A stretch of 64,000 nt of DNA, taken from the NCBI GenBank assembly GCA_019248265.1, contig JAEHGX010000001.1:90794-154793 (forward strand), written 5' to 3'. The translations under genes and the position numbers were made by a program. Below, piece after piece: positions 23,691-60,404 of the stretch (position 1 is its first letter; each line of letters starts with the position of its first letter). Source of the DNA: Candidatus Falkowbacteria bacterium S5_I03. Its GTDB lineage: Bacteria; Patescibacteriota; Patescibacteriia; Patescibacteriales; UBA12465. The notes under the pieces are model-generated. The model saw only the letters and a list, made by a program, of their open reading frames with translations. It did no database searches and was not told the DNA's origin.

Positions 23691-23768
23691 GATGTGGGCC
23701 CGGAGGTGGTCCTCGGGGTTGGACCTGACATTCGGTCTCCGGGGTTCAATTCCCCGCGGGTCCACATC
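23691..23768 (+). ncRNA. tRNA-like cloverleaf RNA, copy A (78 nt), function unknown
   Basis: The ends form a 12-bp helix (GATGTGGGCCCG with CGGGTCCACATC, one G-U). Inside are a 4-bp D-like stem GAGG/CCTC with the 4-nt loop TGGT, an anticodon-like arm GTTGG/TCGGT with a 9-nt loop containing TGACA, and a normal T arm CGGGG TTCAATT CCCCG. There are no bases between the closing helix and the D stem, no long variable arm and no encoded CCA after the discriminator. A decoding tRNA is unlikely. A second copy lies at 60181-60258 (minus) with compensatory stem changes. The RNA appears to start at its own promoter, so the 12-bp helix is in the primary transcript. Confidence 0.75.
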
Positions 23769-23778
23769 CGGCGAGTGG

Positions 23779-23807
23779 TTGACCGGACCGTGATTTTAGT
23801 ATATAAT
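23779..23807 (+). promoter_or_regulatory. Promoter of antisense small RNA A
   Basis: TTGACC (23779-23784), exactly 17 bp, TATAAT (23802-23807). The same TTGACCGG start and 17-bp spacing recur in both small-RNA promoters at 60.1-60.4 kb. Confidence 0.85.
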
Positions 23808-23813
23808 ATTAAT

Positions 23814-23881
23814 ATTAAATGTCAGGTTCTATCCCGAGGTCATCTTGAGACCAAAAAAATCTCCCTTTGGGAGATTTTTTG
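23814..23881 (+). ncRNA. Small RNA A, complementary to tRNA-like RNA A
   Basis: A roughly 68-nt transcript is predicted from a near-consensus promoter to an intrinsic terminator. Its 5' part (23818-23839) can pair with 23711-23732 of the adjacent tRNA-like RNA over 22 positions (19 Watson-Crick, 2 G-U, 1 mismatch), covering the 3' strand of the D stem, the 5' strand of the anticodon-like stem and its loop. A short hairpin GGTC/GACC (loop ATCTTGA) follows. There is no credible reading frame. It may regulate, sequester or jointly fold with the tRNA-like RNA. Confidence 0.7.
23853..23881 (+). terminator. Terminator of small RNA A
   Basis: Stem AAATCTCCC/GGGAGATTT (23857-23865 and 23869-23877) with a TTT loop and a T run. 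Confidence 0.9.
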
Positions 23882-23919
23882 TAAAAAAAAGGAAGCGCCT
23901 CCGCACTTCCTTACTCTTG

Positions 23920-60055: not shown

Positions 60056-60129
60056 AACAAAAAACCTCTCCGTTTAGGAGAGGTTTTTCACACTTCAGAA
60101 TGGTCTCACTGCCAGAATCGACACCCGTG
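60056..60129 (-). ncRNA. Small RNA B of the tRNA-like locus
   Basis: Predicted from its promoter to a terminator, about 70 nt. It shares the layout of small RNAs A and C: a TGTC motif at the 5' part, a conserved GAGACCATTCTGA-like segment, then the terminator. Its 5' part can pair with tRNA-like RNA B over 13 positions with one mismatch and three G-U, weaker than the fit of RNA C. It may therefore match another tRNA-like copy outside the window. Confidence 0.65.
60057..60089 (-). terminator. Terminator of small RNA B
   Basis: Stem AACCTCTCC/GGAGAGGTT with a 5-nt loop and T run on the minus strand. Confidence 0.9.
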
Positions 60130-60135
60130 TAATTA

Positions 60136-60164
60136 ATTATAGCAAAACACGATTTGCCGGTCAA
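60136..60164 (-). promoter_or_regulatory. Promoter of small RNA B
   Basis: TTGACC (60164-60159), 17 bp, TATAAT (60141-60136). The 29 bp are identical to the small RNA C promoter. Confidence 0.88.
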
Positions 60165-60180
60165 TATTTTGTTTCCACCA

Positions 60181-60258
60181 GATGTGGACCCGCGGGGAAT
60201 CGAACCCCGGAAACTGAGTGTCAAATCCAGTCCTGGAGGCCACTCCCGGGCCCACATC
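60181..60258 (-). ncRNA. tRNA-like cloverleaf RNA, copy B (78 nt), function unknown
   Basis: Same length and plan as copy A: identical 12-bp closing helix, D-like stem GGAG/CTCC with loop TGGC, anticodon-like arm ACTGG/TCAGT with 9-nt loop containing TGACA, and T arm CGGGG TTCGATT CCCCG. Relative to copy A, paired positions change together in the D-like and anticodon-like stems, while the loops TGG and TGACA stay fixed. A normal tRNA-Val with CAC lies elsewhere, and this RNA lacks a normal anticodon loop. No CCA is encoded. Confidence 0.75.
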
Positions 60259-60264
60259 AAAATA

Positions 60265-60297
60265 ATTGTAACTGATGAGAGATAAACTCCGGTTAAA
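60265..60297 (-). promoter_or_regulatory. Promoter block of tRNA-like RNA copy B
   Basis: TACAAT (60270-60265) lies 6 nt before the RNA. The upstream block at 60297-60281 matches the one before copy A (TTTA, 3 nt, GGA, 1 nt, TTTATC) with the same 10-bp gap to the -10. Confidence 0.6.
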
Positions 60298-60298
60298 C

Positions 60299-60328
60299 AA
60301 AAAGCCTTCCCGCAAAGGAAGACTTTTT
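60299..60328 (-). terminator. Terminator of small RNA C
   Basis: On the minus strand, AAAGTCTTCC/GGAAGGCTTT with one G-U pair, then T5. The wobble works only on this strand, which supports the transcript direction. Confidence 0.9.
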
Positions 60329-60369
60329 TATGTTTCGAAATGGTTCCGATACTGGATTTGACACTCGTA
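60299..60369 (-). ncRNA. Small RNA C, antisense to tRNA-like RNA B
   Basis: About 70 nt from promoter to terminator. Its segment GAGTGTCAAATCCAGT (60366-60351 on the minus strand) is a perfect 16-nt complement of ACTGGATTTGACACTC in tRNA-like RNA B (60231-60216 on the minus strand), covering the anticodon-like stem and loop. Further pairs are possible beyond. It is encoded just upstream of copy B, on the same strand, so pairing would occur between two separate transcripts. Confidence 0.72.
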
Positions 60370-60375
60370 AAATCA

Positions 60376-60404
60376 ATTATAGCAAAACACGATTTGCCGG
60401 TCAA
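60376..60404 (-). promoter_or_regulatory. Promoter of small RNA C
   Basis: TTGACC (60404-60399), 17 bp, TATAAT (60381-60376). Confidence 0.88.

Follow-up and report, generated by a model that had tools for sequence, protein, structure and literature searches.

What is a tRNA-like RNA doing between two small RNA genes, one of which encodes an exact complement of part of it? The question is raised by positions 60056-60404 of the window, the 64,000-nucleotide stretch of Candidatus Falkowbacteria DNA analysed here. Read along the minus strand, this locus (locus B) has a sigma70-type promoter, a small RNA (RNA C) and a terminator, then a tRNA-like RNA (copy B), and then a second promoter, small RNA (RNA B) and terminator, the same order that a preliminary description had given. 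RNA C occupies 60295-60371 (minus strand) from a predicted start site, behind a -35 element at 60399-60404 (the complement of GGTCAA) and a -10 element at 60377-60382, and has a terminator hairpin at about 60299-60329. RNA B lies at 60056-60131 on the same strand, with its -35 at 60159-60164 and its -10 at 60137-60142. In the window's own bacterial family, the small RNA is usually found downstream of the tRNA-like RNA, on the same strand and with its own promoter. That is the place of RNA B, and RNA C is the extra element of the locus.

It is nevertheless RNA C that matches. The 16-nt perfect complementarity claimed for it was confirmed by direct reading: its first pairing box, 60366-60351 on the minus strand (GAGTGTCAAATCCAGT), pairs 16 of 16 with 60231-60216 of copy B (ACTGGATTTGACACTC, same strand), which covers the anticodon-like stem and loop. 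The arm had been taken as the only pairing region, however, and a duplex search predicts two, the second box of RNA C (60347-60337, minus strand; GGAACCATTTC) being complementary to the D-arm of copy B. When the flanks were paired with the core of copy B and compared with 20 dinucleotide shuffles, the upstream flank, which holds RNA C, gave z = -5.1, and the downstream flank with RNA B an unremarkable z = -1.2.

Copy B runs from G1 to A73 at 60253-60185 (minus strand) and has the acceptor GGGCCCG/CGGGTCC with a G3:U70 pair, a reduced D-arm with GG and a T-arm. Its best Rfam match is the tmRNA model (RF00023; 33.4 bits, E = 3.8e-10, below the gathering score of 47), and the match covers the tRNA-like domain only, skipping the entire mRNA part. 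E-values for the tRNA-like RNA with this model are about 1e-8 to 4e-10. The fold is borne out by covariation in alignment A1, in which 24 copies align well: 95.0% of cells are paired, 13 pairs have changed on both sides, and the covariation score is 0.351, where shuffles give 0.145 and sliding gives no more than 0.126. While pairs 4, 6 and 7 of the acceptor vary with compensation, the third is G3:U70 in all 24 copies. Together with A73 it is kept in acceptors as different as GGGGCUA/UAGCUCC, GGGGGUA/UACCUCC, GGGGGCG/CGCUUCC and GGGGCCA/UGGCUCC, found in copies elsewhere. G3:U70 is the identity mark of alanine tRNA and tmRNA. The D-loop GG is invariant, the length is 66-75 nt, and the base at -1 is U at 30 of 31 loci; RNase P favours a U at this position. 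Both loci of the window also have GATGT...ACATC ends (60185-60258 and 23691-23769). In several copies leader and trailer can bring the acceptor stem to a length of 12 bp, which might slow processing.

The RNA is not a decoding tRNA by the usual signs, namely an ARAGORN cloverleaf, a 7-nt loop and a purine 3' of the anticodon. ARAGORN called no tRNA at 60185-60253, nor in most of the loci, although a few copies of the upstream type described below were called tRNA-Ser or Leu and one (L098) tRNA-Cys. With tmRNA it shares the alanine-type acceptor with G3:U70, the T-arm and the small D-region, but it has neither the mRNA-like domain with tag frame nor the pseudoknots, the interior of the model being deleted in the match. 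It carries an anticodon-like hairpin instead, is only about 70 nt long and occurs in several copies per genome. In a permuted two-piece tmRNA the acceptor stem is shared between two RNAs; here the stem lies within one RNA, and the small RNA pairs with the arms of this tRNA mimic.

The anticodon-like loop, often of 9 nt on a stem of 4-6 bp, follows the rule U-Y-R-N-C-R, that is, a U-turn (UNR), then C and in most cases A. In copy B the motif reads UUGACA (60219-60224, minus strand). The C after the triplet is present in all 24 aligned copies, and the single exception at other loci is L148, with U. To our knowledge, decoding tRNAs never carry C at this position, 3' of the anticodon, where they have a purine. 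Because of this C and the frequent 9-nt loop, ordinary decoding by the mimic is doubtful. Two other readings of the loop were discarded. Most copies in the window's own family have UAA, UGA or UAG in it, as if it were the stop codon of a tiny tmRNA, but relatives have UGC, UGU, UAU, CGA, CGG, CGU or CAU there. A Val or Ala anticodon (RNC) would fall outside the anticodon place in a symmetric loop, and the general rule is U-Y-R-N-C-R.

The genome of the window (G000; 1.1 Mb in 75 contigs, 89% complete) has four such mimics in its assembly: copy A (23696-23764, plus strand), copy B, and one each on two other contigs (C10, 457-530, and C31, 2636-2708). Copy A is followed on the same strand by RNA A (23815-23886; -35 at 23779-23784, -10 at 23802-23807), which has an antisense part at about 23818-23846 and a terminator at about 23855-23884. 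According to the duplex search, its two boxes run together, forming a nearly continuous duplex of about 30 nt with the D-arm and anticodon-like arm of copy A. Co-folding of the five small RNAs with the four mimics showed each pair to be largely private. The neighbouring pairs A-A, C-B, C10-C10 and C31-C31 reached -18.0, -14.4, -10.7 and -13.6 kcal/mol, and no other combination was better than -7.2. RNA A gained 18.0 kcal/mol with copy A and 6.5 with copy B, and for RNA C the gain was 14.4 with copy B and 7.2 with copy A, the other two giving none, in agreement with the claim that each matches its neighbour's version. Four of the five small RNAs thus pair best with the mimic they adjoin, the sole exception being RNA B.

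That these partners have evolved together had also been proposed, and comparison with relatives agrees. Across 31 loci from the window's own family, cognate pairs had a mean of -33.3 kcal/mol and non-cognate pairs -19.7, with the cognate ranking best of 31 in 22 rows. In 39 loci, mostly from other families of the phylum and chosen partly by eye and loop motif, which makes them a check on a selected set and no survey, the means were -41.1 and -28.7 kcal/mol; the cognate was best in 24, and none of 10,000 permutations did as well (permutation p 1e-4). Orthologous loci keep their extended complementarity by compensatory change. Between locus A and its counterpart in a relative (G003), seven double-sided and three single-sided compensated changes are found in 18 pairs, and between L119 and L140 there are 11 double-sided compensatory changes in 14 pairs. 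Drift of the small RNA without compensation, which would have spoken against co-evolution, was not seen, no more than one pair being lost in any of six orthologous or paired locus comparisons. Judged from these comparisons, the pairing and co-evolution taken alone are close to certain.

The misfit of RNA B was part of the preliminary description too, and it holds up. RNA B, with its box 1 (GGGTGTCGATTCTGG) at 60112-60126 (minus strand), occupies the usual place, but co-folding gives a weak -6.6 kcal/mol with copy B and -5.3 with copy C31. The further suggestion, that RNA B might match a third copy elsewhere, found no support: the ideal target occurs in the 89%-complete assembly only as the complement of RNA B itself, and the next-best sites have two mismatches. 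Within the 31-locus set, its best partner is a copy of a relative (G003a, -40.1). Comparison with G003 and another relative, G004, suggests that locus B carries two small-RNA units, RNA B having the body of the small RNA in G003 and RNA C that of the small RNA in G004. The promoters of RNA C and RNA B (60371-60404 and 60131-60164) are almost the same, a sign that the antisense gene was recently duplicated in tandem. We read the locus as such a duplication, one of the two copies having stayed in step with the mimic.

The small RNA is 80-90 nt long, and its box 1 begins at or a few bases from the likely start site, with box 2 following 5-20 nt later. Its promoter looks the stronger one: TTGAC occurs in 25 of 31 downstream flanks, where the small-RNA promoters lie, versus three of 31 upstream of the mimic, and the mean -35 match is 4.9 of 6 for the small RNA versus 3.1 of 6 for the mimic. 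In other families of the class, the small RNA lies upstream and is permuted (anti-5'-half, hairpin, anti-3'-half), as at L016, L018, L122-L125, L129, L133, L138, L149, L151, L152 and L160. This type is scored poorly by a simple duplex programme and ranks lower for that reason. In several permuted small RNAs (L138, L124, L133, L016 and L018), both ends meet near the U-turn of the mimic. A third layout is seen at L121, where the small RNA is divergent, and the related L141 looks alike. Since all three layouts have the same pairing, the pairing and not the layout appears to be what selection keeps.

How far the module extends depends on how it is searched for. An exact T-arm pattern found close relatives of the window's genome among Candidatus Falkowbacteria. 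Of the 111 genomes of the order, 25 have strong copies by model R1, some weaker matches that may be tRNAs included; in the class it found copies in 50 of 381 genomes, a good part of them ordinary tRNA-Ala. Copies with cognate small RNAs are found in more distant families of the phylum (L198, L199 and L217). Model R2, built for the upstream type, matched 378 of 380 genomes and did not separate the family from ordinary tRNAs, and the pattern TTGACA...TCCA mostly matched what look like ordinary tRNAs; both were dropped as markers. Viral contigs gave 106 matches, two of which passed the antisense screen, one being a phage tRNA array and the other unconvincing. Several copies per genome are common, with five in G003 and six in G018, and at L008, L014 and L030 two modules with different loops lie within about 0.5-1.2 kb. 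No accompanying protein was noticed at any locus, the flanking genes having been looked over without systematic comparison. The module does not simply replace a missing tmRNA/SmpB system, which is absent from the incomplete assembly of the window's genome but present in most module-carrying relatives: among 40 relatives, 34 have a normal tmRNA with tag frame over the cut-off and 36 have SmpB. At L107 (contig C59 of genome G033), two copies with matching small RNAs (1590-1660 and 2313-2383) lie just past tmRNA and smpB. At L113/L025 (contig C9 of G021, about 125998-126097), the T-loop is broken by a GC-rich hairpin insertion of about 30 nt, and the adjoining small RNA still matches the anticodon-like arm of the interrupted mimic.

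The explanation that we prefer, with slightly better than even confidence, is that the small RNA is an antisense RNA silencing an alanine-accepting tRNA mimic, to a toxin-antitoxin-like purpose. It builds on the pairing, co-evolution, conserved alanine identity and U-turn motif seen in the sequences, and it presumes transcription of both RNAs, trimming, charging and toxicity of the mimic, and its silencing by the small RNA. The first RNA would be trimmed by RNase P at the U at -1 and charged with alanine through G3:U70 and A73, and would combine a tRNA/tmRNA elbow with the unusual anticodon-like U-turn loop. The second would be made from a strong promoter. Its 5' tail would pair quickly with the U-turn loop, box 1 invading the loop and the 5' side of the arm, and box 2 would bind the D-arm and with it the T-loop-docking GG. 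Such a duplex would open the core of the mimic, withdraw the GG from its docking and leave the mimic unable to act as a tRNA. Copies within one genome would be insulated from each other because the partners recognise each other only through an arm that is free to change. Unless the labile antisense RNA were made, a stable mimic would disturb translation, either because alanine was inserted wrongly or because AlaRS, EF-Tu or ribosomes were tied up.

If the two are an RNA toxin and its RNA antitoxin, a strong small-RNA promoter, a compact mimic, private specificity and a patchy, multi-copy presence are to be expected. The interrupted T-arm of L113 beside a matched small RNA would likewise be expected if the mimic is the harmful partner. 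Against this explanation stands RNA B, a small RNA that has persisted despite its mismatch, and several loci are inherited vertically, as could also be the case for a housekeeping regulator. The wider version, a phylum-wide all-RNA toxin-antitoxin system in which an alanine-charged mimic corrupts translation and a private antisense RNA unfolds it, in many insulated copies, is a serious possibility that still falls somewhat short of probable.

Other explanations have to account for the same features. Both RNAs could work together as a single active complex, related to tmRNA but reduced and in two pieces, in which the mimic takes alanine and enters stalled ribosomes with SmpB, the small RNA supplying or positioning the rest. 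The score of the mimic as a tmRNA tRNA-like domain minus the mRNA part (E about 1e-8 to 4e-10) and the two copies adjoining tmRNA and smpB in G033 would suit such a complex. It is unlikely, though, given that most module-carrying genomes have an ordinary tmRNA and smpB, that the small RNAs, read by eye, have no shared open frame or tag, that the stop codons of the loop are not conserved (UGC, UGU, UAU and CGA are seen) and that the D-loop GG, which a tRNA-like domain must have free in order to work, lies within the paired region.

Alternatively, the small RNA could regulate mRNAs, and the tRNA-like RNA could be a decoy, or sponge, that titrates it. With a conserved mRNA target the pairing segment would be held constant, but this segment varies among copies and genomes and tracks the mimic, and the conserved G3:U70 is left unexplained. 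This too is improbable, even though a pairing box at the 5' end of a terminator-ended RNA resembles trans-acting sRNAs and the promoter is strong. The mimic might, lastly, be a specialised alanine tRNA that has an antisense regulator of its own and serves outside the ribosome, for instance in modifying the cell wall or lipids. Its conserved alanine identity, and an anticodon that is unusable in the normal way, speak for this; several insulated copies per genome and presence in only 25 of 111 genomes of the order would be odd for a supply tRNA, and no transferase gene was noticed beside the module, so that this is the least probable of the explanations considered.

As for known systems, an RNA toxin together with an RNA antitoxin defines the type VIII toxin-antitoxin class (PMC10767807). 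As in SdsR-RyeA and CreTA, both partners here are small RNAs encoded side by side. In the module one pairs with the other, and silencing would be the outcome. The genes of SdsR-RyeA overlap on opposite strands, however, whereas those of the module are separate and their products pair directly, and CreA acts through a CRISPR effector while the target here is a tRNA mimic. Membership of type VIII is not claimed for the module, the mimic being a putative toxin. Recognition by a U-turn loop is shared with hok/Sok, ColE1 RNA I/RNA II and pMV158 RNAII. In these U-turn (YUNR) antisense systems, the small RNA approaches the loop with its 5' tail, and copies with different loops are not known to cross-react. 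Their targets are an mRNA or a replication primer, whereas the module has a tRNA-like RNA with alanine identity as its target and partners in separate, non-overlapping genes. A literature search of limited coverage found no such pair, and no paper that brings tRNA-like RNA, antisense RNA and Patescibacteria together. An antisense RNA that serves a tRNA-like RNA alone is not known to us, nor is this family of tRNA-like RNAs.

The analysis suggests an unreported all-RNA control module in tiny, uncultured Patescibacteria, in which a small RNA switches off its own tRNA mimic. If it is a toxin-antitoxin system, it would be a new branch of type VIII, and if the mimic is charged, a bacterial group that is among the largest and the hardest to work with would possess a natural, RNA-controlled tRNA decoy. 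The module would offer many orthogonal RNA pairs, a prediction testable in E. coli, and it would provide Patescibacteria with a system of regulation or addiction made of RNA only.
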